Assembly: GCA_028284525.1 (NCBI GenBank)
Contig: JANQRO010000195.1
Location: 1 to 45,903 of the forward strand
From: Myxococcota bacterium
GTDB taxonomy: Bacteria; Myxococcota_A; UBA9160; PR03
Reading direction: 5' to 3'
Length of the DNA stretch: 45,903 nt
A program made the translations under genes and the position numbers. The notes below the pieces were generated by a model, which was not told where the DNA came from, searched no databases, and was given only the letters and a program-made list of their open reading frames with translations. Below, one piece after another: positions 3,648 through 29,003 of this stretch. Positions within the stretch are counted from its first letter, which is position 1; every line of letters begins with the position of its first letter.

Positions 3648-4160
3648 ATGGGACAGATCTACCACGGCTTCGAAGGCGCCGAGATCCAGGACGAGATTCT
3701 CACCGGCACCGACCTGGGCGAGCTCGGCATCGCGCCGGTCTGTGTCGCCCCCGGCGTCACCTGCGTCGAGCACAGCCACAACCTCGTCGAAGAGGTGATG
3801 ATCGTGAAGGCGGGTCAGGGTCAGATCGAGATCGAGGACCAGTGCCACGAGGTCTGCGCCGGGTCGGTCGCGGTGGTGAAGGCCGGCGAGTTCCACGCCA
3901 TCCGCAACACCGGCGACGAGAACCTCGAGATGGTGATCGTCTTCAACTCCAACGTCGATCTGTCGGCGATCCAGTTGAAGACCCGCGAAGAGCACTTCGG
4001 GACGGCCGCGGGTCTCACCGGCGCCGACCGCGCTGCGTTGGCCGAGCTCAAGAGCGCCGCGGCCTCGATGAACTCGCTTCTCGAAGAGGTGCGCGACGAG
4101 CTCGCCGCGCTCCGCAAGGAGGCCGCGCCCAAGCGACGCGCGCGTGGAAAGGCCGCCTAG
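3648..4160 (+). CDS. Cupin domain protein with C-terminal coiled/basic tail
   Basis: Cupin-like EHSHN...EVMIVKAGQGQIEI...AGEFHAIRNTG; ATG preceded by ggaggagga. Confidence 0.85.
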   Translation: MGQIYHGFEGAEIQDEILTGTDLGELGIAPVCVAPGVTCVEHSHNLVEEVMIVKAGQGQIEIEDQCHEVCAGSVAVVKAGEFHAIRNTGDENLEMVIVFNSNVDLSAIQLKTREEHFGTAAGLTGADRAALAELKSAAASMNSLLEEVRDELAALRKEAAPKRRARGKAA

Positions 4161-4780
4161 GGCGTACTCGCCTCGTCCCACCCCTTCAGCACCGCGTCGG
4201 TGCTGACCACCCAGCCGAAACGGGTGCCCAGGGTCTCGAGGGCCCAGTGGTGGCGCTCGGGCGCGATCTCGCCGGTGGCGTCGCCCACGACCACCGTCCG
4301 GTAGTCGCGCTGCGAGGCGTCCCGAGCGGTCGTCTCGACGCAGATGTTGGTGGTGACCCCGCAGATCACGAGGTTGCGGACGTCCTGGGCCGTCAGGATC
4401 GACGCGAGCGGCGTGCCGTAGAACGCGCTGTAGCGGTTCTTGTCGATCACGAAGTCCTCGGGCCGGGGCACGAGCTCTGGGATCAGCTCCATGTCCGGGG
4501 TGCCCGCCGCGCAGCACTGGGCCTCGACCAGCCCCGGCAGGATCTCGTCGGTGACGACGCCGCCGTCGCGGTAGTCGGCTCGGTAGACGAGACGGGTGAA
4601 GACGATCGGGATCTCGTGACGGCGCGCCCCGTCGACGAGCCGCCGGCAGGGCTCGATGGCGGCCCGACACATCGCCACGTCGAAGCCCGCCCGGGCCGCC
4701 GAGCCCGCGGGGTCGCAGAAGCCGTTCTGCATGTCGATCACGATGAGCGCGCTGCGTTCGACCTGGATCGGTGCGTCCAT
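4157..4780 (-). CDS. Isochorismatase-family cysteine hydrolase (amidohydrolase-like)
   Basis: Putative D-K-C triad: VIDMQNGF, DKNRYSAFYGT, ICGVTTNICVETTARDA. Confidence 0.92.
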   Translation of the reverse strand: MDAPIQVERSALIVIDMQNGFCDPAGSAARAGFDVAMCRAAIEPCRRLVDGARRHEIPIVFTRLVYRADYRDGGVVTDEILPGLVEAQCCAAGTPDMELIPELVPRPEDFVIDKNRYSAFYGTPLASILTAQDVRNLVICGVTTNICVETTARDASQRDYRTVVVGDATGEIAPERHHWALETLGTRFGWVVSTDAVLKGWDEASTP

Positions 4781-4781
4781 G

Positions 4782-5204
4782 TCACCTCCTCTGCAGCGGA
4801 GAGGGTACCGAAGCCGAGGCGTGTCTCCGGATCACCTCGGCACCCGCCGGGGCCACGACCACCGCGTCTCCCACGAGCACGCGCTGCTCGATCTCGATGA
4901 GGTCGCCGTCGACCCCGGTGACCACGGCCTCGCAACGGATCGTGCTCCCGGGATAGACCGGCGCGCGGTTGCGGTAGTAGAGCCGTGCCAGGCGGTCCCC
5001 CGGCCCCAGCCAGCGGAGCACCTGTTCGGCCAGCAGGGCGCCGAGCATCTGGCCGTCGACGACCGCGTCCTCCATCCCGGCGCGTCGGGCGTGGTCCGCG
5101 TCGTAGTGGAGCCGGTGCCAGTCCCAGGTGGCGGCGCCGTAGGCCACCATGTCGGGCAGCGCGATGTGACGCGCGAGGACGGGGAGGGTGTCGCCCGGCT
5201 TCAC
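4782..5204 (-). CDS. MaoC-like hotdog dehydratase (second half of pair)
   Basis: DMVAYGAATWDWHRLHYDADHARRAGMEDAVVDGQMLGALL; GTG start overlaps upstream TGA (GTGA). Confidence 0.85.
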   Translation of the reverse strand: MKPGDTLPVLARHIALPDMVAYGAATWDWHRLHYDADHARRAGMEDAVVDGQMLGALLAEQVLRWLGPGDRLARLYYRNRAPVYPGSTIRCEAVVTGVDGDLIEIEQRVLVGDAVVVAPAGAEVIRRHASASVPSPLQRR

Positions 5205-5671
5205 GACACCCTCCGTTCGCGAAAGAGCAGCGTCTCCGTGTTGGTGGCGAGCCAGCTGCCGTCGCCGGCGTGGTAGGTGGCGCGGGAGGTCACGACGAGG
5301 AGCGGGGTGTCGTCCGACGCGCGGCGCTCGACGGCGTCCACCAGCTCGACGGTGGTGGTCACGACGTCGTCGTAGCGGGCCGGGCGACCGAACTCGTAGT
5401 CGTTGCCCCCGCGGATCATCTCGCAGTCGACGGGGAGCGCAAGCGCCCACATGTGCCCGAGAAAGGAGTTGGCGTCGGTCTCCATCTTGCCCGTGATCTG
5501 GTTGGTCTCGCAGATCAGCGTCGGTGGGGCGTCGTCGACCCAGCGCTCCGGATCCGCCCCGATCGCCAGGACGAAGAAGCGGATCGCGGCGCGCCCCAGC
5601 GCCTCGGGCGCGACGTAGGTGACGCGCTGGCCGATCTGGGCGTGCACCGCGTCGGTGAGCAGCGCCGTCAC
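5201..5671 (-). CDS. MaoC N-terminal-type hotdog dehydratase (first half of pair)
   Basis: FAS1-DH/MaoC-N-like YVAPEALGRAAIRFFVLAIG...TNQITGKMETDANSFLGHMWALALP; GTG start overlaps the RidA-like stop. Confidence 0.75.
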   Translation of the reverse strand: MTALLTDAVHAQIGQRVTYVAPEALGRAAIRFFVLAIGADPERWVDDAPPTLICETNQITGKMETDANSFLGHMWALALPVDCEMIRGGNDYEFGRPARYDDVVTTTVELVDAVERRASDDTPLLVVTSRATYHAGDGSWLATNTETLLFRERRVS

Positions 5672-6777
5672 GGCACCAGCGCCAACGCCTCGATCTCGAT
5701 CCACCAGGAGGAGGCGAGGAGTCCCCCCACGACCACCCCGGTCGAGGCGGGAAAGGGTCGGCCGAGGAGGCGTCGGCGCAGCGCCCCGACCTCGCGGTAG
5801 CCCGCCGCGCCGGCGGGGCTCACGTACTCGACGGTCTTCACCAGGTGCTCGAGGGAGCTCCCTGCCGCCTCGCACACCGCGGCGATCTGTGCGTAGACGT
5901 ACTCGGCCTGGGCGGCGATGTCGCCGCGGGCCACGGTCTCGCCGGTCGTCGCATCCCAGGCCGTGGTCCCCGACACGAAGAGAAGGTCCCCCGCCACGAC
6001 GCCCGGGCTGAAGCTGAGGCGATCGAAGGCGGGCCAGCCCGGGTTGATCACGCGCTTCTCGTGTCGCGAGGCCCAGACTTCCAGCGCGATCAACGCGTCC
6101 GGGTGGGGGAGGGCGGGAGAGAGCACCCCCGTGGACGCGGGGTACGCCGGGCCCAGGAGACGCTTGCGCGCCTCGCCCGTCTCCCGGTACCGGTCGCGGG
6201 TCGCGGCGGTGGTCTGCTCGACCGTGCGGACGACGTCGCCCAGCCCGAGGCCGTGGGGCTCGAGCCGTCGCGCGGCCTCCTCGAGCACGAACTCGGCCTG
6301 GCCCACGAGGTCGCCCGGGGCTACGACCTCGCCGTTCGCGTCGAGGGGGAGGAGCTGGGGGAGACGCACGAGGCCCTCTGCGGCACCCGCGACCACCTCG
6401 ATCTCCACCAGGGCGTCGGGCCGCAACAGCGACTCCACGACGAGGGTGGAGCCCTCGAGCGAGAGGCCCGAGGGCCGCGCTGCGCGTACCGCCTCACGCT
6501 CGGCGAGCCCGTCGACGGTCAGGTACTCGACGAGCTCGCGACACGAGGAGGGGGGGCAGCCCGCGGCGTCGAGCACGGCCCCGACCTTCTTCCAGCAGAG
6601 CGCGGCCTGCGCTCCCGCGTTGCCGTCCACCACGACGCGGGACCGCTCCGCGTCGTAGACCGAGGCGGTCTGGCCCGAGAGCCAGTGCGCGCCGCCCGCG
6701 GAGATCGCCGGGGAGAAGGTGTACTTCGAGGTGTCGACCCAGGGAAAGTGGGCGGGGGCTACGGCTCGCAGGGTCAT
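5668..6777 (-). CDS. Three-domain Rid (YjgF/YER057c/UK114)-family protein
   Basis: Three successive Rid-like units ending VEIEVVAG, ALEVWAS and IEIEALALV; FVSGTTAWDATTGE...AAQAEYVYAQIAAVCEAAGSSLEHLVKTVEYVS in domain 3. Confidence 0.85.
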   Translation of the reverse strand: MTLRAVAPAHFPWVDTSKYTFSPAISAGGAHWLSGQTASVYDAERSRVVVDGNAGAQAALCWKKVGAVLDAAGCPPSSCRELVEYLTVDGLAEREAVRAARPSGLSLEGSTLVVESLLRPDALVEIEVVAGAAEGLVRLPQLLPLDANGEVVAPGDLVGQAEFVLEEAARRLEPHGLGLGDVVRTVEQTTAATRDRYRETGEARKRLLGPAYPASTGVLSPALPHPDALIALEVWASRHEKRVINPGWPAFDRLSFSPGVVAGDLLFVSGTTAWDATTGETVARGDIAAQAEYVYAQIAAVCEAAGSSLEHLVKTVEYVSPAGAAGYREVGALRRRLLGRPFPASTGVVVGGLLASSWWIEIEALALVP

Positions 6778-6800
6778 CCGGTCCTCCCGCCGGCGGGTCT

Positions 6801-7631
6801 TCAGTCCTTCCGGCCTTCGATCTCGGCGACAAAGGCGCGGAAGCGCGCGATACACGCGTCGGCGCAGTCGATGTAGACCTCGTGTCCCGGGCCTTCCATC
6901 ACCGCGAGCTGCGCGTCGGGAATCCTCTCGCGCATCGCGAGCTGGTCGGAGAGCGGCGTGATCGGGCTGCGTGCAGGGGCCAGGACGAGGGTGGGCACCT
7001 TCACGTCCGGGAGCAGCGGCGCCGTGTCGGCGCCGTCGAGGGTCTTGGTGATGCCCTGGAGCACGTGGGTCGGCGTCTTGGCCCACTCGCGCTTCACCCA
7101 CTCGGCGTGGGCAGGGCTGGTCGCGCTGATGATCTTGCGCTCGATCATGAGCCGCACCCAGCCGACCGCGCCTTCCTCGGCGAGCACCCGTTGCAGGTCG
7201 CCGGCGTCGTCGGCGAGGGCGCGGGCGGCGTCGCTGCGGATCGTCGTCGGCGAGTTGCAGATCGTGAGGCTGGCGAAGCGCTCGGGCCAGCGCGTCGCAA
7301 ACAGGATGCCGAGGATCCCGCTGATCGACTCCCCCAGATAGTGGACGCGCCCGATCCCGAGGGCGTCGAGGAAGTCGCGCATGTCGGTGATCAGCTCGTC
7401 GAGGCTCCACTTGTGGTCGGGCCCGGGGTCCTGGGAGCGCCCGTGTCCCCGCATGTCGCGACGCAGCACCCGGTAGTCGCCCGCGAGGGGCGGCACCCAG
7501 TGGTGCCAGTAGCGGGTGCTGCGGCCGACGCCGTGTTGCAGCCACACGGTGGGCGTGTCGGCGGCCCACGGATCGCTGAAGTCGTCCAGCTCGTAGTACA
7601 TCTCGCAGCCGTTCGCCGAGACCGTCGCCAT
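6801..7631 (-). CDS. Alpha/beta hydrolase
   Basis: LQHGVGRSTRYW, DMRGHGRS, nucleophile elbow GESISG, C-terminal GPGHEVYID. Confidence 0.92.
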   Translation of the reverse strand: MATVSANGCEMYYELDDFSDPWAADTPTVWLQHGVGRSTRYWHHWVPPLAGDYRVLRRDMRGHGRSQDPGPDHKWSLDELITDMRDFLDALGIGRVHYLGESISGILGILFATRWPERFASLTICNSPTTIRSDAARALADDAGDLQRVLAEEGAVGWVRLMIERKIISATSPAHAEWVKREWAKTPTHVLQGITKTLDGADTAPLLPDVKVPTLVLAPARSPITPLSDQLAMRERIPDAQLAVMEGPGHEVYIDCADACIARFRAFVAEIEGRKD

Positions 7632-7649
7632 ACCGGGAGGATAGGCGAA

Positions 7650-7685
7650 GGCCGCAGCCGGCGGCCGGATCCCACCGGTGTGGGA
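7650..7685. repeat. Two tandem short hairpins between the GST-like and hydrolase genes
   Basis: ggccgc-agccg-gcggcc (7650-7666) and tcccac-cggt-gtggga (7670-7685). Confidence 0.45.
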
Positions 7686-7734
7686 CCGGATCCGCGCCCG
7701 GCTGGAGACCTGGGCGCCCGCCCACCGCGTCGAC

Positions 7735-8607
7735 TCAGTCGACCGAGACCGGCAGCCCGACGTGTTCCCGTAGCACGCGCTCGCGGTGCTCCATCAGCCG
7801 CGGGCTGGCGGCGTCCCGCAACGCTCCGTTCAACGCCGGATACATGGCGCGGTTGAAACGCATGATCGGGAGCTCCTCGCGGTCGAGGATCTCGACGAAG
7901 TTCGATGCGAAGGCCCAGTAGAGGTCGAGGGCCGAGAGCCGCTCGCCCACGAAGAAGACGCCGCCCCGCGTCTGGTTGGCCGCGAGCTCGGCGTCGAGCA
8001 GCGCCAGCGTGTCGGGGATGTTGCGGAGGGGCGCCGAGGCCTTGGCGTTGTGGGAGTACTTGCCGCCCAGGGGCTCGCCGGGGGTGAAGAAATCGCGCTG
8101 CTTGGCGCTCATCTTCGCCGGGTCGGCGGCGTCTCCCAGCTCGGCGAGGGCGAGACGCCCGTTCCAGAGCATGCCCTGGGGCGAGAGGATCTCGTGGGCG
8201 AGCCCGAACATCCGCACCCGCTCCTCGCCGCGCTGTGGCACGAGGGCCGGCTCGGGCTCGATCTGCTCGGCGAGGAGGAGCTGGTTCAGCCAGTCGCTCT
8301 TCACGATCTCGCCCCGCTTCGGGTCGCTGTAGACGAGCACCGGCGCCGAGGTCTGTGCCGTCCACGCGAAGAGCTCTTGCTGGGCATCGGGGTTCTGGTC
8401 GCTGAAGGGTGGGTGGAGCACCTTCTGGAAGGGAATCCCCTTGAGGTCGAGGACGGCGCGCAAGCTGAGCGCCCACCAGTTGGCCCAGTGCGGGTTGTCG
8501 GTGACGCGCACGCCGCCCGCCTCGCGCGCCTGGGCCACGGTCATCCAGCCGCTGCCCTCGAAGGGTCGCGACGCCGGCCAGCCCGGCGGCACCGCGGCCG
8601 CGCTCAC
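7735..8607 (-). CDS. Glutathione S-transferase-like protein
   Basis: Thioredoxin-like N-terminus with APVLVYSDPKRGEIVKSDWLNQLLLAEQ; C-terminal helical FFVGERLSALDLYWAF; GTG start overlaps upstream TGA. Confidence 0.75.
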   Translation of the reverse strand: MSAAAVPPGWPASRPFEGSGWMTVAQAREAGGVRVTDNPHWANWWALSLRAVLDLKGIPFQKVLHPPFSDQNPDAQQELFAWTAQTSAPVLVYSDPKRGEIVKSDWLNQLLLAEQIEPEPALVPQRGEERVRMFGLAHEILSPQGMLWNGRLALAELGDAADPAKMSAKQRDFFTPGEPLGGKYSHNAKASAPLRNIPDTLALLDAELAANQTRGGVFFVGERLSALDLYWAFASNFVEILDREELPIMRFNRAMYPALNGALRDAASPRLMEHRERVLREHVGLPVSVD

Positions 8608-9089
8608 GACGCGCGCTGCTCCTTGGCGCGTGCCGCCGCGACCTCCCAGACCCCGTGGTTCCCGGTCGCCCAGGTGACGGTGAGGCTGTACTTCTTGATC
8701 TTCCACCCCTGCTCGGTGCGCACCATGTCGTACTGGTAGTAGCCGGCCAGCACGTTCTCGTCGTTGCCCATCGGCGTCCGCACCACGTGTTGGGCGTGCA
8801 GATACGAGGTGCTCTTGGCGGTGTCGCCGCGGATGTCGTGGGTGTGGTTGGTGATGATGTGCTGGGTCGCGTCGAAGCCCTCGATCAGGTTCTCGGCGCG
8901 TCGCACCCACTCGTCGGCTCCCTTCACCACGACGCCGGGCCAGATCGAGGTGAAGTCCGCCTCGACGTCGTCGGTAAAGCAGCTCCGGAAGAGCTTCCAG
9001 TCACGCATATCGACGCCCAGGGCGTAGCGGTGGAAGACATCGCTGATCTCGGCGCGGTCGAGAAGGGTCTGGGTGGTGAGCTCGGTCAT
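8604..9089 (-). CDS. SnoaL/NTF2-like nuclear transport factor 2 family protein
   Basis: DRAEISDVFHRYALGVDMRDWKLFRSCFTDDVEADF...HIITNHTHDIRGDTAKSTSYLHAQH. Confidence 0.88.
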   Translation of the reverse strand: MTELTTQTLLDRAEISDVFHRYALGVDMRDWKLFRSCFTDDVEADFTSIWPGVVVKGADEWVRRAENLIEGFDATQHIITNHTHDIRGDTAKSTSYLHAQHVVRTPMGNDENVLAGYYQYDMVRTEQGWKIKKYSLTVTWATGNHGVWEVAAARAKEQRAS

Positions 9090-9118
9090 CGTTGCACTCC
9101 TGTGCGCGACGCGGCGCG

Positions 9119-10015
9119 CTATGCCCCGTAGGGCTTGATCGGGGTCCACGCGCCGGCGAGGGACGCGTCGAGCTGGTCGATGTCGTGGCCGCCCTCGAGG
9201 GTCACGTTGCCCGAGGGCCGCGGCTGGCTCATCAGCGCGATGCCCTCGCTGCTCACCAGGAAGTCCTGCCCGGTGATGTCGACGGCGGCGTCGGTGCACA
9301 GCCAGGTGACGAAGGAGGCCACGACGTCGGGGGTCCAGGACTCGAGACGCGAGAGGTCGACATGGGGCTCGCCGGCCTTCTCGGCGCGCTCGACGGCCTC
9401 GCGGAGCTGGTCGGACAGCGTCATCCGCGTCGCGGCCCGCGGCCGGATGCAGTTGACCCGCACGCCGTAGCGGCCGAGGTCGAGGGCCGCGGTGCGCGTG
9501 AACCCGGTGATTCCCTCTTTCGCCGCCGAGTAGTTCGACTGCCCCATGTTGCCGAGGCCCGACTCGCTGCTGGTGTTCACGATCACGCCGGAACGCTGGT
9601 CGCGGAACACCTCGGCGGCGGCCCGGGTACACGCGAAGGTGCCCTTCAGGTGCACGGCGATCACGAGATCCCACTCTTCCTCGCTCATCTTGTGGAGCAT
9701 ACGGTCGCGCAGGATGCCGGCGTTGTTGATCAGGATGTCGAGACGACCGAACTCGCCGAGGGCGGTCTGCACCAGGTCACGACCCGTCTCCATCTTGGAG
9801 ACGTCGCCGTAGTGGGGGATCGCCTTGCCGCCGGCCGCGACGATCGCGTCGGCGACCTCGTCGGCGGGCCCGTGGGCCCCGCCGGTGCCGTCGGCGCCAC
9901 CGCCGAAATCGTTCACCACCACGGCGGCGCCTGCCTTCGCAAGCTGTTCGCACTCCTGCTGGCCGATGCCTCGGCCACCACCGGTCACGATCGCGACACG
10001 TCCTTCAAGCCGCAT
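9119..10015 (-). CDS. SDR family oxidoreductase
   Basis: VTGGGRGIGQQE, INNAGILRDRM, SSESGLGNMGQSNYSAAKEG. Confidence 0.94.
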   Translation of the reverse strand: MRLEGRVAIVTGGGRGIGQQECEQLAKAGAAVVVNDFGGGADGTGGAHGPADEVADAIVAAGGKAIPHYGDVSKMETGRDLVQTALGEFGRLDILINNAGILRDRMLHKMSEEEWDLVIAVHLKGTFACTRAAAEVFRDQRSGVIVNTSSESGLGNMGQSNYSAAKEGITGFTRTAALDLGRYGVRVNCIRPRAATRMTLSDQLREAVERAEKAGEPHVDLSRLESWTPDVVASFVTWLCTDAAVDITGQDFLVSSEGIALMSQPRPSGNVTLEGGHDIDQLDASLAGAWTPIKPYGA

Positions 10016-10060
10016 ACTTTGCCCTCTTGGAGTTGGGAGTGGGGGTCGCGTCCCCCGTCT

Positions 10061-10516
10061 CTAGGTCGTGGGATTCTTGAGGACCAGCTGCTGCATCTGG
10101 TAGTGCATCACCACCTCGCCGCGCTGGTTTACGATCTCGAAACGCGAGTTCAACACGCCTTTGTCGCCCTTGCTGGTCTCCCGCGCCGAGAGGACGGTGA
10201 CCCGGACCTGGAGAGTGTCGCCCACCAGGATCGGCTTGGGGATCCGCATCTCGTCGACCCCGAGGATCGCGACAAAGGTCTTCTCGTAGAGCCCGGTCCG
10301 GGTCGTGAGGCCCTGCGCCATCCCCCACACCATGGCGGCGGGGGCGAAGCGCCCGCCCCGGATCGGGCTCTCGTTCTCGATGTACTCGAGGTTGCAGAAG
10401 AGGTCCTCGTAGAGTCCCGAGAGCGCCACGAAGTTCACGATGTCGGTCTCGAAGACCGTGCGTTTCGGGGTCTCGTAGACGAAGCCCTCGGGAAAGTCCT
10501 CGAAGTAGTAGGGCAC
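10061..10516 (-). CDS. MaoC family dehydratase
   Basis: YYFEDFPEGFVYETPKRTVFETDIVNFVALSG...GVDEMRIPKPILVGDTLQVRVTVLSARETSKGDKGVL. Confidence 0.9.
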   Translation of the reverse strand: MPYYFEDFPEGFVYETPKRTVFETDIVNFVALSGLYEDLFCNLEYIENESPIRGGRFAPAAMVWGMAQGLTTRTGLYEKTFVAILGVDEMRIPKPILVGDTLQVRVTVLSARETSKGDKGVLNSRFEIVNQRGEVVMHYQMQQLVLKNPTT

Positions 10517-10598
10517 GCGGTGCCTCCTGCGGGGCCGACGCTCCGGCCGTCAGCGTGGTCCCGCGCTCGGGTCCACGACGAACGAGTCCCGGGCTCGT

Positions 10599-11387
10599 CT
10601 AGCGTCCCTTCCACTCGGGTTTGCGTTTCTCCACAAAGGCGGCGATGCCCTCGCGGCCGTCCTCGGTGCCCATCGCCGCGGCGATCGTCACGCCCTCGAG
10701 CTCGCCCGCCTGCTCGAGGGGGCTGTCGAGGCCGGCGTAGACGATGTTCTTGGCCCGCCCCAGGGCCCAGGCGGGGCCGTTCGCGAGGGACTGGGCCAGT
10801 TCGGCGGTAGCCTGGTCGACCTGGTCGTCGGGCACCACCCGGTTCACCAGCCCCCAGGCTTCGGCTTCCTCCGCCGAGAGCACGCGGTTGGTCAGGGTGA
10901 GGTCGAGCATCCGGCGCAACCCGATGTGACGCGCGACGAAGTAGGTCGAGGTGCCGTCGGGGGTCACACCGGCCCTGGTGTAGGCCATCGTGAACTTGGC
11001 CGACTCGCCACACACCACCAGGTCGAAGGCGCTCACGATCGAGAGCCCGGCGCCTCCCGCCGCGCCGTTCACGCCCGCCACCACGGGCTTGGACACGCGG
11101 TTCATCTTGTAGATGGCGCCGTGGAAGTCGGTGAGCATGTCGCTGGCGAGCTTGGGCAAGCCGTCTCCCGCGGCGTGGAACTCCTTCAGGTCGCCGCCCG
11201 CGCAGAACACCTTGCCTTCGGCGGTGATCGACACGGCCTTCACCGCGTCGTCCCACTCCACCTCGAGCATCGCGGAGCGCAGGTCGCGGGAGAAGGCGGG
11301 GTTCACCGCGTTGGCGCCCTCGGGACGGGTGAAGCGGATGTGGGCCACGCCGTCGCGGGCTTCGTAGTCGAGGGTGTCGAGCTTCAT
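10599..11387 (-). CDS. Enoyl-CoA hydratase/isomerase family (PaaG-like)
   Basis: FCAGGDLKEF, NGAAGGAGLSI, FTMAYTRAGVTPDGTSTYF (Asp in the PDG motif). Confidence 0.92.
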   Translation of the reverse strand: MKLDTLDYEARDGVAHIRFTRPEGANAVNPAFSRDLRSAMLEVEWDDAVKAVSITAEGKVFCAGGDLKEFHAAGDGLPKLASDMLTDFHGAIYKMNRVSKPVVAGVNGAAGGAGLSIVSAFDLVVCGESAKFTMAYTRAGVTPDGTSTYFVARHIGLRRMLDLTLTNRVLSAEEAEAWGLVNRVVPDDQVDQATAELAQSLANGPAWALGRAKNIVYAGLDSPLEQAGELEGVTIAAAMGTEDGREGIAAFVEKRKPEWKGR

Positions 11388-11436
11388 GGGGGGTGGGTCC
11401 GGTCCTTTGTCCTGGTTCGTGGGAGGGGCGCGACTT

Positions 11437-12354
11437 CTACAGCGCCTCGACCATCGGGTAGTCGCCCACCTCGAGCCCGAAGCTCTCGGCCTGTTCCAGC
11501 AGGTCGAGGGCGTTTCGCACGTGGGCGTAGTCGATCATCATGCCGTCGTAGGTGACCGCCGCGATGCCGGCGCGCTCGGCGTCGGCCATCGCCTGCATCA
11601 CGCCCTTGTTCCACTCGATCTCGTCGGGGGACGGGGCGAAGACCTCGTTGGCGATGGGGATCGCCGTGGGGTGGATCGCGAGGGCGCAGCGATAGCCGAT
11701 CTCGCGGGCGCGCTGGAGCTGCTCGCGCACCAGCGCGGTGTCCCCGACTTCGAGCGAGCCGATCGAGAGCGGGTACTCGATGCCGGCGGCGCGGGCGGCC
11801 AGGAGGACGTGGGAGGAGAGCGCCAGGGTCTCGAGGTTGCTCCGCGTCCACTTGTATCCGATCGCCTTGGTGATGTCGCCGGAGCGCGCGCTGGCGCCAC
11901 CCGCGATGTTGCCGACCCGGGGACACGCCGTCGCGAGTTCGTAGGCGTCCTGGATGCCGCGGGCCGTCTCGGGCAGCGCCACGATCTCCACGCTCCCCGC
12001 AGCGAGCCCGGCCTTGCGTTCGAAGAGCTCGATCCAGGCGTCGACCTTGAGCACCTCCTCGACGCGTTCGAGCTTGGGGACCGCCACCGCCACCAGGCCT
12101 TCGGTGACGATCGCCTCGATGTCCTCACCGGTGAGACCCGTGTCGACGCCGTTCACCCGCACCACCACCGGAACCTCGCGCTCGCGCAGACGCTCGATGC
12201 CGGCGCGCACGATGCCCCGGGCCTCGGTCTTCTCGTCGTTGGGCACCGCGTCCTCGAGGTCGAGGATCAGCGCGTCGGAGCCGTACTTGGGGGCTTTGTC
12301 GATCCACTCCGGGCGGTTGCCCGGGACGAAGAGAATCGATCGGTAGAGCTTCAT
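11437..12354 (-). CDS. CitE/HpcH/HpaI-type CoA ester lyase
   Basis: RSILFVPGNRPEWIDKAPKYGSDALILDLEDAVPNDEK, VRVNGVDTGLTGED, ALPETARGIQDAYELA. Confidence 0.92.
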   Translation of the reverse strand: MKLYRSILFVPGNRPEWIDKAPKYGSDALILDLEDAVPNDEKTEARGIVRAGIERLREREVPVVVRVNGVDTGLTGEDIEAIVTEGLVAVAVPKLERVEEVLKVDAWIELFERKAGLAAGSVEIVALPETARGIQDAYELATACPRVGNIAGGASARSGDITKAIGYKWTRSNLETLALSSHVLLAARAAGIEYPLSIGSLEVGDTALVREQLQRAREIGYRCALAIHPTAIPIANEVFAPSPDEIEWNKGVMQAMADAERAGIAAVTYDGMMIDYAHVRNALDLLEQAESFGLEVGDYPMVEAL

Positions 12355-13958: not shown

Positions 13959-14351
13959 TCAGCGACTCCAGTCGGCGACCGCGTAGTCGTCGGGGACCTG
14001 GACGAAGAGCACCCGCGCCGGGCCCGCGGTGACCCGGGTGAGGTGACCCTGGCCGCCGACGTCCTCGGCCGCGAAGAGTCCGCCCGGGCCCCACTGTCGG
14101 ACCTCGCGGTCGGTGGTCTCGACCTCGACCTGGCCCTCGAGCACCAGGACGAGCTGACGCTGGGGCGCGTTGTGCCAGCCCTGGTCGAGGCCGTCGGGGA
14201 GCTCGACCAGCACGGCCTCGGATCCCGGCACCGACGAGGTGAGGCGGAGGGTGTGGCCGAAGGCGTCGTCCCGCGTGTTCGGGAACGCGACCTCGAGGTC
14301 CTCGAAGCGGGAGCCGCCGTCCTCGGTTTCGTAGAAACGGGTGATGCGCAT
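13959..14351 (-). CDS. Cupin-like protein
   Basis: LVELPDGLDQGWHNAPQRQLVLVLEGQVEVETTDREVRQWGPGGLFAAEDVGGQGHLTRV. Confidence 0.82.
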   Translation of the reverse strand: MRITRFYETEDGGSRFEDLEVAFPNTRDDAFGHTLRLTSSVPGSEAVLVELPDGLDQGWHNAPQRQLVLVLEGQVEVETTDREVRQWGPGGLFAAEDVGGQGHLTRVTAGPARVLFVQVPDDYAVADWSR

Positions 14352-14501
14352 CGCGGGGTGCCTCCGGATCCGATGCTACGCCGGGCCGGCGAGCGCCGCC
14401 GCGGTGTGGGCGGTGGGCCCCCCGGAGCCGCGCCGGACCCCGGTGATTCGGGTAGGCTGTGGGCCGCCCGCGCCGGCGGGCCGAACGAGGAGACCAGGGG
14501 T

Positions 14502-15710
14502 ATGAGCTCACCGGTGCCGGTTCTGAACGGCTTGCGTGTGGTGGAGATGACGGTGTGGGTCGCCGGCCCCTCGGCGGGCGGCATCATGGCCGATTGGGGC
14601 GCCGACGTGATCAAGGTCGAGCCGCCGGTCGGCGACCCCCAGCGCAACCTCTTCAAGGCGATCGGCTACCGCGAAGACATGCCGAACCCGGCCTTCGCCA
14701 TCGACAACCGGGGGAAGCGCAGCGTCGTCCTCGACCTGCGCAGCGACGAGGGCAAGGCCGCCATGGAGCGGCTCCTCGAGGGCGCCGACGTCTTCCTCAC
14801 GAACATGCGCCCGGCCGCGATGGAGCGTCTCGGGCTTCACCCCGACCAGGTGAGCGCCCGGCACCCCGAGCTCATCTACGCCACGGTGACGGGCTACGGC
14901 CTCGACGGCCCCGAGGCCCACCGCCCGGGCTACGACATCGGCGCCTTCTGGGCGCGGGGTGGCATCGCCCGACACCTGGTCGCGAAGGACGCGGCGCCGG
15001 TGGGCGTCCGCGCAGGGCTCGGCGATCACGTCACCGGAATCAGCACGGTCTCCGGCATCCTGGGCGCCCTCTACGAGCGTCAGCGCACCGGGAAGGGTCG
15101 GGTGGTCGAGACCTCGCTCCTCCGCGCGGGTGCCTACACGATCGGCGGGGACATCGGCATCCAGCTCGAGTTCGGTCGGATCGAGTCGACCAAGGATCGC
15201 GACAAACAGCCCCTCGCCCTGGTGAACAGCTACGAGGCGGGAGACGGCAAGTGGCTGTGGCTGATCGGTCTCGAGGCCGACCGCCACTTCCCGGGCGTGC
15301 TGCGCGCCCTCGACCGCGAAGAGCTCGCCGACGACCCGCGCTTCAAGGACGCCAAGGCACGCAAGCGCAACTGCGAGGCGTTGATCGCCGAGTTCGACGT
15401 CACCTTCAAGTCGAAGCCCCGCGAGTACTGGGCCGAGCGCTTCGACGAGAACGACGTGTGGTGGGCGCCGGCCCAGAGCCTGGCCGAGGTGGTGGAGGAC
15501 GAACAGCTCCACGCCGCCGGAGGCTTCCTCGAGATCCCGGCGGGCGAGGTCGAGGACACGATGACCGCCGTGGCGTCGCCGGTGACCTTCCGCGGCGACC
15601 CGCTCACCCACACCGGACCGATCCCGGCCCTCGGCCAGCACACCCGCGAGGTGCTCGAGGAGATCGGTCTCGGCGCCGACGAGATCGACCGCGTCACCAA
15701 GGACGTCTGA
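14502..15710 (+). CDS. CaiB/BaiF CoA-transferase family protein
   Basis: LNGLRVVEMTVWVAGPSAGGIMADWGADVIKVEPPVGDP; NRGKRSVVLDLRSDEG; GYGLDGPEAHRPGYDIGAFWARGG. Confidence 0.95.
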   Translation: MSSPVPVLNGLRVVEMTVWVAGPSAGGIMADWGADVIKVEPPVGDPQRNLFKAIGYREDMPNPAFAIDNRGKRSVVLDLRSDEGKAAMERLLEGADVFLTNMRPAAMERLGLHPDQVSARHPELIYATVTGYGLDGPEAHRPGYDIGAFWARGGIARHLVAKDAAPVGVRAGLGDHVTGISTVSGILGALYERQRTGKGRVVETSLLRAGAYTIGGDIGIQLEFGRIESTKDRDKQPLALVNSYEAGDGKWLWLIGLEADRHFPGVLRALDREELADDPRFKDAKARKRNCEALIAEFDVTFKSKPREYWAERFDENDVWWAPAQSLAEVVEDEQLHAAGGFLEIPAGEVEDTMTAVASPVTFRGDPLTHTGPIPALGQHTREVLEEIGLGADEIDRVTKDV

Positions 15711-15753: not shown

Positions 15754-17847
15754 ATGTCGACCCGACCCTTTCTCCTCCTGGCGGCGCTGCTGGTTGCGGC
15801 CCCGACCGCCCCCGTCCTGGGACAGACCGTCGTCGACGACGCTGCGCTGAGCACGACCGGCGACGGGTCGAACTGGCTGGCCTACGGCCGCAACTACAGC
15901 GAGAACCGCTTCAGCCCCCTCACGGAGGTGAACACCGAGACCGTGAAGCGCCTGGGGGTCGAGTGGGTGCTCGACCTCCCGAACGACCGCACCTTGACCT
16001 CGACCCCGATCGTCGTCGACGGCGTCATGTACTTCACCGGGAGCTACAGCAAGACCCGCGCCGTCGACGTGAAGACGGGGAAGGTGCTCTGGGAGTACGA
16101 CCCCGAGTCGATCCGGCACGCCGGCGACAAGCTCCGCATCATGTGGGACACGAGTCGGGGCCTGGCCTTCTGGAAGGGCAAGGTGATCATCGCGACGATC
16201 GACGGTCGGCTGGTCGCGATCGACGCGAAGACCGGGACACGTGTGTGGGAGACGAACACGATCGTCCCGGACAAGTACTACTACATCACCGGCGCGCCGC
16301 GGGTCTTCCGGGGGAAGGTGCTGATCGGCAACGGCGGCACCGAGCAGAACGCGGCGCGGGGCTATGTCACCGCCTACGACGCCGAGACCGGCGAGCAGGC
16401 CTGGCGCTGGTGGATCGTGCCGGGGAACCCCGCCGACGGCTTCGAGAACGAGGCCATGGAGATGGCCGCCAAGACCTGGACCGGCGAGTGGTGGAAGTAC
16501 GGGGGCGGGGGCAACGCCTGGAACGGCGTCACCTACGACCCCGAGTACAACCAGGTGCTGATCGGCACGGGCAACGGCTCGCCCTGGAACCGCAAGATCC
16601 GCAGCCCCGGCGGCGGCGACAACCTCTTTCTGTGCTCGATCGTCGCGCTGGACGCCGACACCGGTGAGTACAAGTGGCACTACCAGACCGTCCCCGGTGA
16701 GACCTGGGACTACAACTCGAACATGGACATCGTGCTGGCCGACCTCGAGATCGGCGGCGAGACGGTGAAGGCGCTGATGCACGCGCCCAAGAACGGCTTC
16801 TTCTACGTGATCGACCGCAGGGACGGCAAGGTCCTCTCGGCGGACAAATTCGGCAAGGTCACCTGGGCCTCCCACGTGGACCTCGAGACCGGCCGCCCGG
16901 TGGAGATGCCCGGGGCGCGTTACGAGGACGGCGAGGAGGAGATCTGGCCGGGGCCCTTTGGCACGCACAGCTGGCACGCCATGTCGTACAACCCGGAGCT
17001 CGGTGTCGTCTTCATCCCGACCATCGAGATGCCGGCGCTCTACAGCGACAAGAAGATCGACCTCAAGGCGTGGCGCTCGCCGGAAGCGGGGCGTCTCAGC
17101 GCCGGGGTGGAGTTCGGGACGGGCGACGTCCCGACGGACTACGGGCTGTCCTACCTGATCGCCTGGGACCCGGTGGAGAAGAAGGAGCTCTGGCGCAACC
17201 GGCTCCCCAACAACTGGAACCCCGGGACGCTCAGCACCGCGGGCGGGCTGGTGTTCCAGGGGCGCGCCTCCGGGATCTTCGCGGCGTACGACGCCCAGAC
17301 CGGGGGCGAGCTCTGGACGATCGATCTCGGCCTCGGGATCTCGGCGCCGCCGGTGACCTACTCCGTCGACGGCAAGCAGTACGTCTCGCTCCTGGTCGGC
17401 TGGGGCGGCGGCGGGATCAACCTGGGCTCGCTGGCGGCCCAACACGGCTGGGCGTACAGAAAACACACCCGGCGTCTCTACACCTTTGCTCTCGACGCGA
17501 CGGGCGCGGTCCCGGACTCGGCGCCGCCCTTCTTCCCCGAGCCGATCGACGTCGCCGGATTCGAGGTCGACGAGACCCTCGCCGCCGAGGGCAGCGAGCG
17601 CTACGTCGAACACTGCTTCTGGTGTCACGGGTCGGCGGCGATCTCCGGAGGGAACGGCCCCGACCTGCGCGCCTCTCCGGTGTCGACCACCTACGACGGC
17701 TTTCGCCAGGTGGTGGTGGAAGGGCGACAGCCCCTCGGCATGCCGCGCTTCCGCGACTACGACGAGCGCACCCTCCAGGCCCTCTACCACTACGTCCGCC
17801 AGCAGGCGCGGATGGCGGTGCAGGCCAAGACGGCGGCCACGCCCTAG
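15754..17847 (+). CDS. PQQ-dependent quinohemoprotein alcohol dehydrogenase with C-terminal c-type heme
   Basis: Signal peptide; repeated beta-propeller motifs (VKTGKVLWEYDP, DAETGEQAWRWW, DADTGEYKWHYQTVPGETWDYN); C-terminal CFWCH heme site. Confidence 0.94.
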   Translation: MSTRPFLLLAALLVAAPTAPVLGQTVVDDAALSTTGDGSNWLAYGRNYSENRFSPLTEVNTETVKRLGVEWVLDLPNDRTLTSTPIVVDGVMYFTGSYSKTRAVDVKTGKVLWEYDPESIRHAGDKLRIMWDTSRGLAFWKGKVIIATIDGRLVAIDAKTGTRVWETNTIVPDKYYYITGAPRVFRGKVLIGNGGTEQNAARGYVTAYDAETGEQAWRWWIVPGNPADGFENEAMEMAAKTWTGEWWKYGGGGNAWNGVTYDPEYNQVLIGTGNGSPWNRKIRSPGGGDNLFLCSIVALDADTGEYKWHYQTVPGETWDYNSNMDIVLADLEIGGETVKALMHAPKNGFFYVIDRRDGKVLSADKFGKVTWASHVDLETGRPVEMPGARYEDGEEEIWPGPFGTHSWHAMSYNPELGVVFIPTIEMPALYSDKKIDLKAWRSPEAGRLSAGVEFGTGDVPTDYGLSYLIAWDPVEKKELWRNRLPNNWNPGTLSTAGGLVFQGRASGIFAAYDAQTGGELWTIDLGLGISAPPVTYSVDGKQYVSLLVGWGGGGINLGSLAAQHGWAYRKHTRRLYTFALDATGAVPDSAPPFFPEPIDVAGFEVDETLAAEGSERYVEHCFWCHGSAAISGGNGPDLRASPVSTTYDGFRQVVVEGRQPLGMPRFRDYDERTLQALYHYVRQQARMAVQAKTAATP

Positions 17848-24102: not shown

Positions 24103-25596
24103 TCAAGCGCGGCTGAAGTCGTAGTGGTCGAGCCGGAACCAGCGGCTGGCGAGTCGCGAACGCGCCCAGCTCACCGGGCGTAGCAGCGGGGTGTCGCCGT
24201 GCTCGTCGAAGTAGTAGCTGCGCGCGCTGGCGCAGTTCCCCGCGAAGAGCACCGAACTCTCCCGGAGTCGGAGCATCGCGGCGAAGTCGGCCTCGTAGGA
24301 CTCCTCCTTCACCTCCACCCGCGTGGCGCCCCGACGCCGCGCCGCCTCGAGACAGCGCAGCAGATGGGTGCTCTGGGTCTCGATCACGTCGAACCAGGAG
24401 GGACTCGTGGTGCCGTAGGGGCCGAACATCATGAAGAAGTTCGGGTAGCCGGGGACGCTCACCCCGTGGAAGGCGCGGTAGCGGGTGCGCGCCCAGAGCT
24501 CGCCGAGCTCGACACCGTCCCGGCCGTAGACCGGACAGCTCGGCATCGCGCCGCGCTCGGCGACCGCGTAGCCGGTGGCGCAGATCAGGGTGTCGATCTC
24601 CCGGCGTTTGCCGTCCTCGGTGACCACGGCGTGCTCGGTGATCTCGCGGATCGGGTCGGTCACGAGCTCGACCTCGTCGCGGTTGAACACCGGGTAGTAG
24701 TCGTTGGAGATCCCCGGTCGTTTGCAGAAGAAGCTGTAGTCGGGGGTGAGCTTCTCGCGCAGCACCGGGTCTTCGATCTGCTCGTGCAGGTGACGCAGAC
24801 ACTGTCGCTCGATCCAGCGAAAGAGCCCCGGCACCTGTTTGTAGTGGAGCAGGCCGATCCCGAAGAGCAGGGTGTTGTTCGCGCTGGCGACGCCGCGCAG
24901 GGCGCGTTGCACCAGGGGGACGCGTCGGAAGATCCGCTTCCAGCGCTCGGAGATCTCGCCGTCGACCTTGGGAAGCAGCCAGATCGGGGTGCGCTGGTAG
25001 ACGTCGAGGCGGGCCACGTGGTCGACGATCGCCGGGACGAGCTGCACCGCGGTGGCGCCGGTGCCGACGACGGCGACCCGCTCGCCCCCCAGGTCGTGCC
25101 CGGCGTCCCAACGCGCCGCGTGGATCAGCTTGCCCTCGAAGCTCTCGATCCCCGGGATCTCCGGGAGCTTCGGGTCGGCGAAGATCCCGGTCGCGCTCAC
25201 GAGATAGCGGCAGCGCAGCGGGTCCCGGCCGGCGATCTCGAGACGCCAGCAGGTGTCCGCCTCCTCGTAGACACAGCGCTCGACCCGGTGGCCGAAGCGG
25301 ATCCGCGGCCGCAGCCCGTACTTGTCGGCACAGTGCACGGCGTAGGCCTGGAGCTCCGCGCCCGGGGCATAGAGCCGCGACCAGTCCGGGTTGGGCTCGA
25401 AGCGGTACGAGTACTTGGGCGACGGGATGTCGACGCAGAGCCCGGGGTAGGTGTTGTCCCGCCAGGTGCCCCCCACCTCGTCGGCGCGCTCGAGCAGCGC
25501 CAGGTCGCGGAAGCCCCGCTTGCGCAGCTCGATGGCGGCACCCATTCCCGAGAAGCCCGCGCCCAGGATCCCGATCTCGAAGTCGATCGCCGTCAC
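24103..25596 (-). CDS. Flavin-containing monooxygenase, Baeyer-Villiger type
   Basis: GTG start; ILGAGFSGMGAAIEL, EVGGTWRDNTYPGLCVDIPSPKYSYRF, FEGKLIHAARWD fingerprint, VVGTGATAVQLVP. Confidence 0.93.
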   Translation of the reverse strand: MTAIDFEIGILGAGFSGMGAAIELRKRGFRDLALLERADEVGGTWRDNTYPGLCVDIPSPKYSYRFEPNPDWSRLYAPGAELQAYAVHCADKYGLRPRIRFGHRVERCVYEEADTCWRLEIAGRDPLRCRYLVSATGIFADPKLPEIPGIESFEGKLIHAARWDAGHDLGGERVAVVGTGATAVQLVPAIVDHVARLDVYQRTPIWLLPKVDGEISERWKRIFRRVPLVQRALRGVASANNTLLFGIGLLHYKQVPGLFRWIERQCLRHLHEQIEDPVLREKLTPDYSFFCKRPGISNDYYPVFNRDEVELVTDPIREITEHAVVTEDGKRREIDTLICATGYAVAERGAMPSCPVYGRDGVELGELWARTRYRAFHGVSVPGYPNFFMMFGPYGTTSPSWFDVIETQSTHLLRCLEAARRRGATRVEVKEESYEADFAAMLRLRESSVLFAGNCASARSYYFDEHGDTPLLRPVSWARSRLASRWFRLDHYDFSRA

Positions 25597-25717: not shown

Positions 25718-26887
25718 ATGAGTGTGCGCAACAAGGCCTGGATCGCCGGGGTCTACGAGCATCCGGGCCGCGAGCTCCCGGGCCGCACCCTGGCCCAGAT
25801 CCACGCGGAGGTCGCCGAGGGCGCCCTCTCCGACGCGGGGCTCGGCTTCGACGATGTCGACGCCTATTACTCCGCCGGCGACGCGCCGGGCTTCGGCGGG
25901 CTGTCGATGGCCGACTACCTGGGCCTTTCCTGCCGCAACATCGACGACACCGAGACGGGCGGCTCCTCCTACCTGGTGCACGTCCAGCACGCCGCCGCTG
26001 CGATCGCGGCGGGGCACATCCAGGTCGCCCTCATCACACTGGCCGGCAACCCCCGTACCGGCGGCGCCTCGCCGGGGGGGAGCGCCGGGGTCGGCGGCGC
26101 GCCGGAAGCCGGCTTTGACAGCCTCTACGGGATGGGCGTGCCCGGGGGCTACGCCCTCGCCGCCCAGCGTCACATGTACGAGTTCGGGACCACGAGCGAA
26201 CAGCTCGCGGCGATCAAGGTCGCGGCGTCGACCCACGCCCAGCACAACCCCGACGCGTTTCTGAAGGACGTCGTGAGCATCGAGGAGGTGCTCGCATCGC
26301 CGATGATCTCCGACCCGCTCCACCGCCTCGACTGTTGTGTCATCACCGATGGCGGAGGCGCCCTCGTGGTGGTGAGCCCCGAGGTCGCCCGCGATCTCGA
26401 CCGCCACTGTGTCGCGGTGCTCGGCACCGGCAACGCGGTGAAGCACACCGACGCCGGCCGCATCGATCTCACCCACACCGGCGCGGTCTGGTCGGGGCCC
26501 GCTGCGTTCGAGGAAGCCGGGCTCACCCCCGCCGACATCGACTACACGTCGATCTACGACAGCTTCACCATCACCGTACTCATCACCCTCGAGGATCTGG
26601 GCTTCTGCGAGAAAGGGAAGGGCGGAGCCTTCGTCGAATCCGGTGCGCTTCAGTCGCCCCACGGCGCGCTTCCTTTCAACACAGACGGTGGGGGGCTGTG
26701 CAACAACCACCCCGGCAACCGCGGGGGGATGACCAAGGTGATCGAGGCCGTGCGACAGCTGCGCGGCGAAGCGCACCCCGCGGTGCAGGTGCCCGACTGC
26801 AACCTGGCCCTGGCCCACGGCACCGGGGGCAGCCTGGCGCTGCGTATGGGCAGCGCCACCCTCATCCTCGGACGGGAGGCCCGATGA
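25718..26887 (+). CDS. Thiolase-fold protein lacking catalytic Cys (lipid-transfer/Ltp2 retro-aldolase-like)
   Basis: Thiolase fold with DTETGGSSYLVHVQHAAAAIAAG, CNNHPGNRGGMTKVIEA (His kept), LALAHGTGG (no Cys). Confidence 0.88.
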   Translation: MSVRNKAWIAGVYEHPGRELPGRTLAQIHAEVAEGALSDAGLGFDDVDAYYSAGDAPGFGGLSMADYLGLSCRNIDDTETGGSSYLVHVQHAAAAIAAGHIQVALITLAGNPRTGGASPGGSAGVGGAPEAGFDSLYGMGVPGGYALAAQRHMYEFGTTSEQLAAIKVAASTHAQHNPDAFLKDVVSIEEVLASPMISDPLHRLDCCVITDGGGALVVVSPEVARDLDRHCVAVLGTGNAVKHTDAGRIDLTHTGAVWSGPAAFEEAGLTPADIDYTSIYDSFTITVLITLEDLGFCEKGKGGAFVESGALQSPHGALPFNTDGGGLCNNHPGNRGGMTKVIEAVRQLRGEAHPAVQVPDCNLALAHGTGGSLALRMGSATLILGREAR

Positions 26888-27291
26888 GCGACCTGCCCAC
26901 CTCGGCTCCGCCGGTGAACGCGGAGACCAAGCCCTACTGGGACGGCACCGCCGAGGGCGTGCTCCGCATGCCCCGCTGCGACGACTGCGGTCTCGTGATC
27001 TTCTACCCGCGCAGCATCTGCCCGGGCTGTCGCTCGCGCAACACGACCTGGGTGGAGCTCTCGGGGCGCGGCAGCGTCTACAGCTACACCGTGACCCGTC
27101 GCATCGGCGGCCGCTGGCAGAAACATACCCCGCTGGTGATCGCCTACGTCGAACTCGACGAGGGCCCGCGGATGCTCACCAACCTGGTCGACTGCGACCC
27201 GGAGAGCGTCGCCATCGGGATGCCCGTCGAGGTACGCTTCGACCCCACCGGGGAAGAGAGCGCCGTCCCGCGCTTCGCCCCCCGCCCCTGA
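26884..27291 (+). CDS. DUF35 Zn-ribbon/OB-fold protein
   Basis: MPRCDDCGLVIFYPRSICPGCRSRNTTWVELSGRGSVYSYTV; ATGA overlap with upstream thiolase-like gene. Confidence 0.93.
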   Translation: MSDLPTSAPPVNAETKPYWDGTAEGVLRMPRCDDCGLVIFYPRSICPGCRSRNTTWVELSGRGSVYSYTVTRRIGGRWQKHTPLVIAYVELDEGPRMLTNLVDCDPESVAIGMPVEVRFDPTGEESAVPRFAPRP

Positions 27292-27704: not shown

Positions 27705-29003
27705 ATGGGTCAGACGCTCGACCAGACCGACATCCACCACGCGACCCGCTATGCGGAGGAGGGCTATCCCTGGGAGGATTGGGATCTCCTGCGACGCGAG
27801 GCCCCGGTGTACTGGTACGAGCGCGACGACGTCGAGCCCTTCTGGGCGATCACGCGTCACGAGGACATCCTCGCGGTGTCGCGGCGACCGGATGTGTTCA
27901 TCAATGGCGGGCCCCGTCTGCGGCTCTCCCTGCGTGGCGAGACCGAGCTCTTGCGTGGGGGCCTCGACGCGTTCGGCGAGACGCGCGGCTGGGACCCGGC
28001 GGAGCCGCCGGACTTCGTCTTCATGGACGATCCCCGCCACCGAAACTTCCGGCTCCCCTCGAGCCGCTCCTTCACGCCCGGCCGGATGCGCGGGCTCGCC
28101 GGGCATTTCGACGAGCTCGCGCAGCAGTTCACGGCCGAGTTCGTCGACGCCCTGGACACCCAGAGTCGCGACGGCGGACACTGCGACTTCGTCACCGAGC
28201 TCGCCGCGAAGCTCCCGATCGCTGCGATCGGCGAGATGATGGGGCTTCCGCCCGCGGACTGGAAGAAGATCTTCAAGTGGACCAACGCGATCGTCGGCGA
28301 GGTGCTCCCCGAAGACCGGGTGCAAGGTGAGAGCGAAGCGGACGCGGCTTTGCGGGGGATGAACGAGTTCCGCCAGTACCTCGAGAACCGGGTGCACGAG
28401 CGCCGCGAGGCGGGCTGCGACCGGGCCGACCTCTTCGACACGATCGTCGGCGGCCAAGTCGAAGGCAAGCCGATGAACGATCAGCAGCTGATCGGCTACC
28501 TGCTGCTGATCATCGCCGCGGGGAACGAGACGACCCGCAACGCGACCTCGGGGGGCGTGATCGCGTTGATCGAGCACCCCGAGCAGCGCGACCTCCTGTG
28601 CGCACGCCCCGAACTCCTAGACAGCGCGATCGAGGAGATCCTCCGCTGGACCTCGCCGGTGATCCAGTTCCTCCGGACGGCGACCGCGGACTTCGAGCTC
28701 CGCGGCACGACGATCCGGGCGGGCGACACGATCGGCGTCTGGTATCCCTCGGCCAACCGCGACGAGCGCGTCTTCGACGATCCCTACCGCTTCGACATCA
28801 CCCGGCAGCCGAACCCGCACCTGGCCTTTGGCCACGGCGCCCACTTCTGCCTGGGCGCCAACCTCGCCCGGGCCGAGCTGCGCGCGGCCTTGCGGGCGCT
28901 GCTACCGGTGTTGCCGCGCCTCGAGATCGCGGGGACGCCCCGGCGCATCCCGAACCTGCACGTCTCGGGCTACGCGACGCTGCCGGTGCGCGCCGCGGCC
29001 TAG
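27705..29003 (+). CDS. Cytochrome P450
   Basis: AAGNETTRNATSGG I-helix, EEILRWTSPV ExxR, heme ligand motif FGHGAHFCLGANLARAE. Confidence 0.97.
   Translation: MGQTLDQTDIHHATRYAEEGYPWEDWDLLRREAPVYWYERDDVEPFWAITRHEDILAVSRRPDVFINGGPRLRLSLRGETELLRGGLDAFGETRGWDPAEPPDFVFMDDPRHRNFRLPSSRSFTPGRMRGLAGHFDELAQQFTAEFVDALDTQSRDGGHCDFVTELAAKLPIAAIGEMMGLPPADWKKIFKWTNAIVGEVLPEDRVQGESEADAALRGMNEFRQYLENRVHERREAGCDRADLFDTIVGGQVEGKPMNDQQLIGYLLLIIAAGNETTRNATSGGVIALIEHPEQRDLLCARPELLDSAIEEILRWTSPVIQFLRTATADFELRGTTIRAGDTIGVWYPSANRDERVFDDPYRFDITRQPNPHLAFGHGAHFCLGANLARAELRAALRALLPVLPRLEIAGTPRRIPNLHVSGYATLPVRAAA

Follow-up and report, generated by a model that had tools for sequence, protein, structure and literature searches.

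A triple-Rid protein and a MaoC pair recur together among acyl-CoA enzymes across bacterial phyla

Fusions of three Rid domains are already known as 3x-RidA (PMC4433059). RutC is inactive without Arg104, and none of the tested Rid4-7 members has deaminase activity (PMC8113886). About 10% of RidA proteins have a serine at the arginine site (PMC4433059). In the isochorismatase family, members with an Asp-Lys-Cys triad cleave amides, and a list of conserved residues is available for BiuH and its relatives (PMC5806882). Genes of these families lie together in a Myxococcota bacterium (GenBank assembly GCA_028284525.1, contig JANQRO010000195.1, positions 1 to 45,903). We call this whole stretch of 45,903 nucleotides the window. 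The assembly comprises 4.7 Mb in 601 contigs, with 87% completeness. A preliminary description of the window had noted eleven minus-strand genes that resemble a coenzyme A (CoA) beta-oxidation operon and enclose an isochorismatase, a Rid protein and an alpha/beta hydrolase. What is new is a rare triple-Rid family without the catalytic arginine that is closely tied to a MaoC pair across phyla. The combination had not been recognised as a characterised pathway, and the literature searched holds no description of it. For the 3' half of the run there is good reason to suspect an uncharacterised pathway.

The triple-Rid gene (5668-6777, minus strand) encodes a protein of 369 amino acids with three PF01042 stretches and is the core of the module. 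An AlphaFold model (pLDDT 90.5, pTM 0.90) confidently predicts a pseudo-trimer. The best full-length Foldseek matches of the model are chorismatases (expectation value, E, 4e-13; TM-score 0.54-0.61; 17-20% identity), and RidA and RutC (3v4d) align to single domains only. In an alignment of 20 family members, all 20 lack an arginine at the RidA Arg105 site in each of the three domains. The 16 single-domain Rids of the window's order that are readable at this site carry PARS, PARA or PART. The equivalent of Glu120 is present in domain 1 of 18 and in domain 3 of 19 of the 20 members; domain 2 is without it. With the Rid family model, domain 3 scores 70 bits, and the cut-off is 106. Because the arginine binds the substrate carboxylate, its loss beside CoA enzymes would fit a carboxylate that is tied up as a thioester.

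Related loci were found by a scan with the isochorismatase, by tblastn of all window genes and by whole-genome searches with the triple-Rid alignment. A genome-contig scan with the triple Rid as query gave no match, and the plasmids searched held no full-length triple Rid. The genes for triple Rid, MaoC-N and MaoC-C follow each other contiguously on the same strand in 17 of 18 loci from Actinomycetes, Alphaproteobacteria and Gammaproteobacteria. The spacing in these 17 is -14 to 26 base pairs (bp) from triple Rid to MaoC-N and mostly -4 bp to MaoC-C; in locus L067, MaoC-C was detected by tblastn only. In the exception, L159, all three genes lie within about 6 kilobases (kb). Five of the loci come from close Actinomadura relatives, and the independent support is therefore below the count. 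This gene order of the 3' half exceeds chance.

The triple-Rid family is rare and scattered. It is present in 7 of 297 Actinomycetes and in 2 of 289 genomes of an Alphaproteobacteria sample, each count including the centre genome. Neither the 60 nearest other genomes nor 378 others sampled from the phylum contain a full triple Rid, and the Rid matches in the window's own order and phylum are single domains and distant tandem Rids only. Among 79 other genomes of the order, two have isochorismatase relatives at E 1e-20 or better, with 30-35% identity. The order holds a single 78% relative of CitE, in different surroundings, and the GST-like family is common there as paralogues of 30-40% identity. 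The search for conserved neighbourhoods that the preliminary description had proposed was thus divided in its outcome. The window's order and phylum hold no counterpart in which isochorismatase, Rid and hydrolase are kept together, whereas the isochorismatase and triple-Rid genes co-occur with the MaoC pair and acyl-CoA enzymes in unrelated genomes of Actinomycetes, Alphaproteobacteria and Gammaproteobacteria. The absence of the triple Rid from the phylum and of a close isochorismatase from the order indicates acquisition. Since the codon usage of the eleven genes resembles the remainder of the window, any acquisition was probably not recent. In the triple-Rid tree the Actinomycetes fall on one side, and the window and the proteobacterial copies on the other (98/97). 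In Nocardioides sp. TF02-7 the triple Rid spans two frames, as if by a frameshift (L072, 2000-3300). A TnpB-like open frame separates the triple-Rid and PrpD genes of Actinomadura sp. 6K520 (L149, 1902-2657), and in L064 the MaoC pair is followed after about 1.6 kb by an IS256-like transposase gene (14337-15563), both named by sequence only.

The two MaoC genes next to the triple Rid show, by their motifs, the pattern of two-subunit hydratases with one catalytic subunit. MaoC-C (4782-5204, minus strand; PF01575) carries D-x4-H in the form DWHRLH. MaoC-N (5201-5671, minus strand; PF13452), a FAS1-type dehydratase-like subunit and the presumed non-catalytic partner, is without that motif. The PDB relatives of MaoC-C include ChsH1/ChsH2 and HadB chains, which are distant (E about 1e-5 to 1e-4), and a PDB search with MaoC-N gave no match.

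The last gene of the run (4157-4780, minus strand; PF00857) encodes an isochorismatase-family cysteine amidohydrolase of the RutB/biuret-hydrolase side of the family and is likely an amidase. Along 4780-4157 it has the motif stretches DMQNGF, KNRYSAFYGT and GVTTNICVETT. The Asp-Lys-Cys triad and Gln38, Phe41, Phe148, Thr151, Gly169 and Thr179 (BiuH numbering) are all present. RutB and BiuH are its best NCBIfam models, both under cut-off, and RutB is the nearest solved structure. At the site of BiuH Lys145 it has a tyrosine, like RutB. The cleavage of a C-N bond that had been proposed for the run can reasonably be inferred from the isochorismatase family. A close isochorismatase (46-67% identity) is present in 10 of the 16 triple-Rid genomes; it lies within about 14 kb of the core in seven, and on other contigs or far off in three. 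In two Gammaproteobacteria, L064 and L067, it adjoins the core, with isochorismatase, triple Rid, MaoC-N and MaoC-C in a row, and the window protein is 66-67% identical to the gammaproteobacterial copies. In Nocardioides, five Actinomadura and two Rhodobacterales loci the parts are found within about 10 kb. The isochorismatase is a frequent, not a fixed, partner of the core. An Asp/Glu-racemase-family gene adjoins the isochorismatase in the Nocardioides loci L072 and L092. A lower pathway of the nicotinate type, with a maleamate amidase and an Asp/Glu-racemase-family gene, was considered and not adopted, as no gene of that kind was observed beside the window module. Another isochorismatase-centred cluster, without triple Rid, was observed in marine Alphaproteobacteria (L069, L074 and L088, ~4-15 kb). 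It combines Asp/Glu-racemase-family genes, one to three tandem isochorismatases, an AMP-ligase, and UbiD-like, amidohydrolase_2-like and Rieske-like genes.

The surroundings of the core differ by lineage, and neighbours not covered by a family search were named from a reading of their sequences. In Actinomycetes the order is RipB-like MaoC, F420-type LLM oxidoreductase, CaiB, PrpD, triple Rid, MaoC-N, MaoC-C, thiolase, DUF35, acyl-CoA dehydrogenase and CitE, and an AMP-ligase, more hydratases and an alpha/beta hydrolase are often added. Rhodobacterales have an AMP-ligase, acyl-CoA dehydrogenase, hydratase, a metallo-beta-lactamase-fold gene, an IclR-like regulator and a dipeptide-type ABC transporter. 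In Gammaproteobacteria an AMP-ligase and a Rieske-type oxygenase lie near the core. The window has CaiB, acyl-CoA dehydrogenase and a thiolase-DUF35 pair at 2-15 kb from the module, with CitE and a hydratase upstream. Its CitE is 30-34% identical to that of the Actinomycete module. The thiolase and DUF35 genes (25718-27291, plus strand) have 46% and 33% identity to genes of the Actinomycete locus L073 and are a possible distant counterpart of the pair that follows the Actinomycete core. The common thread of all clusters is CoA-dependent breakdown. In one Actinobacteria metagenome-assembled genome, genes for kynureninase (238 of 246 bits) and tryptophan 2,3-dioxygenase (254 of 391 bits), both below the curated cut-offs, follow the module (L153, 11988-14044). 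A link to tryptophan breakdown was not adopted, since these genes are absent from all other loci examined.

We propose that the genes from 6777 to 4157 form one instance of a catabolic module that bacteria share horizontally and that serves a CoA-dependent breakdown pathway, whose substrate would be an acid carrying nitrogen. We hold this proposal with evenly balanced confidence. The content and order of the core are seen directly, as is its recurrence with acyl-CoA ligase, acyl-CoA dehydrogenase, hydratase, CitE, CaiB, PrpD and, in Actinomycetes, thiolase-DUF35. The substrate would be a carboxylic acid bearing an amide, carbamoyl or ring nitrogen, and the isochorismatase would hydrolyse its amide bond through the Asp-Lys-Cys triad. 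The MaoC pair may form a heterodimeric enoyl-CoA hydratase with MaoC-C as the catalytic subunit. The triple Rid may hydrate an enamine-, imine- or enol-type intermediate that has no free carboxylate, for example a CoA thioester, and for this reason the carboxylate-binding arginine would have been lost, with the Glu120 equivalents retained in domains 1 and 3. Lyase or thiolase steps would yield central metabolites, and the CitE-to-GST half would be a local companion of the core. A further step is to suppose that the triple Rid founds a Rid function other than the deamination of free amino acids. In that case one or two clefts of the fused trimer would be active; it would hydrolyse a CoA thioester of the enamine, imine or enol type and pass the product to the MaoC pair, in an undescribed nitrogen-acid pathway that would have spread among three or more phyla. 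We offer this extension as speculation that is unlikely to hold in full.

Several observations speak against a nitrogen-acid module. No triple-Rid member has a known substrate or activity. The loss of the arginine alone defines no new reaction, because about 10% of RidA proteins carry a serine there. At positions such as Y188, R250 and C350 the window's triple Rid has lost residues that almost every other member retains, and its branch is long, with 1.49 changes per column; this protein may therefore have drifted in function. A close isochorismatase is missing from 6 of the 16 triple-Rid genomes, and amide cleavage is consequently not obligatory for the core. These six genomes and the arginine missing from all three domains, which a deaminase requires, also favour a different explanation, in which the substrate of the module is a branched or cyclic acid without nitrogen, of the steroid, terpenoid or C5-diacid type. 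Without deaminase chemistry, the triple Rid would then be another kind of hydrolase, a tautomerase or a structural partner of MaoC, and the isochorismatase would serve a separate step or pathway. The thiolase-DUF35 genes beside the MaoC pair and the ChsH1/ChsH2 relatives in the PDB recall steroid side-chain enzymes, and CaiB, RipB-like MaoC and CitE recall itaconate/mesaconate breakdown. However, four lineages, the window's among them, have the isochorismatase linked to the core, with direct adjacency in two Gammaproteobacteria, and family members with the same triad cleave amides (PMC5806882). A nitrogen-free substrate is rather improbable.

The preliminary description had compared the isochorismatase, Rid protein and hydrolase with RutB, RutC and RutD of pyrimidine-ring catabolism. 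As a statement about protein families the comparison is sound, but it does not extend to function. In a true Rut-like route the three proteins would act as RutB, RutC and RutD on a ureido- or carbamoyl-enoate supplied by another oxygenase. The shared families agree with such a route, and so does the isochorismatase, with its nearest structure, its best NCBIfam model and its tyrosine at the Lys145 site all pointing to RutB. However, the three models stay far under their cut-offs (RutB 136 of 378 bits, RutC 60 of 169 and RutD 78 of 238), and the Arg104/105 that RutC requires (PMC8113886) is found in no Rid domain. The alpha/beta hydrolase (6801-7631, minus strand) scores higher with PcaD (98 bits) than with the RutD model and is not kept in related loci, where the recurring alpha/beta hydrolase belongs to another subfamily. 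As had been noted, no RutA is nearby, and the whole window contains none. The highest-scoring RutA-like gene in the genome reaches 362 of 498 bits and is located on another contig among unrelated neighbours (G000:C154:871-2004, L170). The LLM genes of the Actinomycete clusters were rejected as RutA-type, as they match F420-dependent LLM families. A Rut-like route is very improbable.

All eleven genes were found head to tail on the minus strand at 12354-4157, as first described. From CitE to the isochorismatase the junctions measure 49, 82, 45, 29, -4, 103, 23, -4, -4 and 1 bp. The overlaps and short junctions that had been reported are present: the three junctions of -4 bp are GTGA, and the others range from 1 to 103 bp. 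The isochorismatase stop and a convergent cupin gene overlap by 4 bp. The 5' half begins with an HpcH/HpaI-CitE family lyase (11437-12354; PF03328; 168 bits with citE and 124 with RipC, both under the cut-offs), followed by an enoyl-CoA hydratase/isomerase family protein (10599-11387; PF00378). The earlier label "PaaG-like" was over-specific for the latter, which scores 176 with the PaaG model against a cut-off of 345. Next come a MaoC-like protein that is weakly RipB/PaaZ-like by family models and lacks the D-x4-H motif (10061-10516), a short-chain dehydrogenase assigned by family models to the 3-oxoacyl/hydroxyacyl type (9119-10015), a SnoaL/NTF2-like protein (8604-9089; PF13577) and a GST-like protein (7735-8607). 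Pfam agrees with the families assigned earlier, but backs the GST assignment weakly, with no family below 0.001 and GST_C at 0.0074. The shared core does not include the alpha/beta hydrolase of the window or most of the CitE-to-GST half.

The widest junction, 103 bp at 7631-7735, lies between the GST-like and alpha/beta-hydrolase genes, and two transcription units could be split there. Consensus scans found no promoter or terminator and are weakly informative at 70% GC. The gap is consistent with the explanation that the CitE-to-GST and hydrolase-to-isochorismatase halves are separate units or pathways, juxtaposed by chance or by acquisition. The halves also have different relatives, and the GST, SnoaL and short-chain dehydrogenase genes are outside the shared module. 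However, both halves share the same strand, short spacing and similar codon usage, and CitE and a hydratase accompany the core in Actinomycetes too. Two separate units are a credible possibility, if a somewhat doubtful one. Beyond the run, the window carries many oxidative catabolic genes. These include a PQQ-type dehydrogenase with a cytochrome c domain and flavin monooxygenase-like, P450-like and Rieske-type genes (15754-17847, 24103-25596, 27705-29003 and 31798-33072).

Rid proteins that lack the arginine are not known to carry out any deaminase reaction. A fused Rid family that is tied to a hydratase pair across phyla provides a pathway setting and a small set of genes in which to find the reaction of a Rid protein without the arginine. 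Cultured hosts that carry the module are available in Actinomadura, Pseudooceanicola, Puniceibacterium and Albimonas. The result would give a name to a catabolic route whose genes are now annotated here and there as "RidA family", "MaoC" and "isochorismatase". Among known systems, RutC of the E. coli rut pathway shares the Rid fold and a RutB-family hydrolase as neighbour. RutC is a single-domain protein that needs Arg104 (PMC8113886), whereas the triple Rid is without it in all three domains. The window isochorismatase has the catalytic Asp-Lys-Cys and the family-conserved residues in common with RutB, BiuH and NicF, but it is under the cut-offs of both RutB and BiuH and has different neighbours. 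ChsH1/ChsH2-Ltp2 of cholesterol side-chain breakdown and HadAB/HadBC are two-subunit MaoC systems with one catalytic subunit, and thiolase and DUF35 genes follow in the Actinomycete module. Their sequence relation to the MaoC pair is distant, and we know of no Rid or isochorismatase counterpart in these systems. CaiB, RipB-like MaoC and CitE, the families of RipABC itaconate degradation, also flank the core in Actinomycetes, but every module homologue scanned is under the curated cut-offs. The chorismatases of the FkbO and Hyg5 type (4bps, 5a3k, 5ag3), with chains of ~330 residues, appear to have the same overall fold as the triple-Rid model. The likeness is at the level of the fold; PDB and NCBIfam searches gave no sequence match between them, and the neighbours of the triple Rid are catabolic. 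A parallel in architecture is 3x-RidA, such as EF_0115 of Enterococcus faecalis, which also has three tandem fused Rid domains and is presumably a covalent trimer (PMC4433059). It was described as a subset of RidA, whereas the window family is without the RidA arginine and is found amid a MaoC pair and acyl-CoA enzymes.

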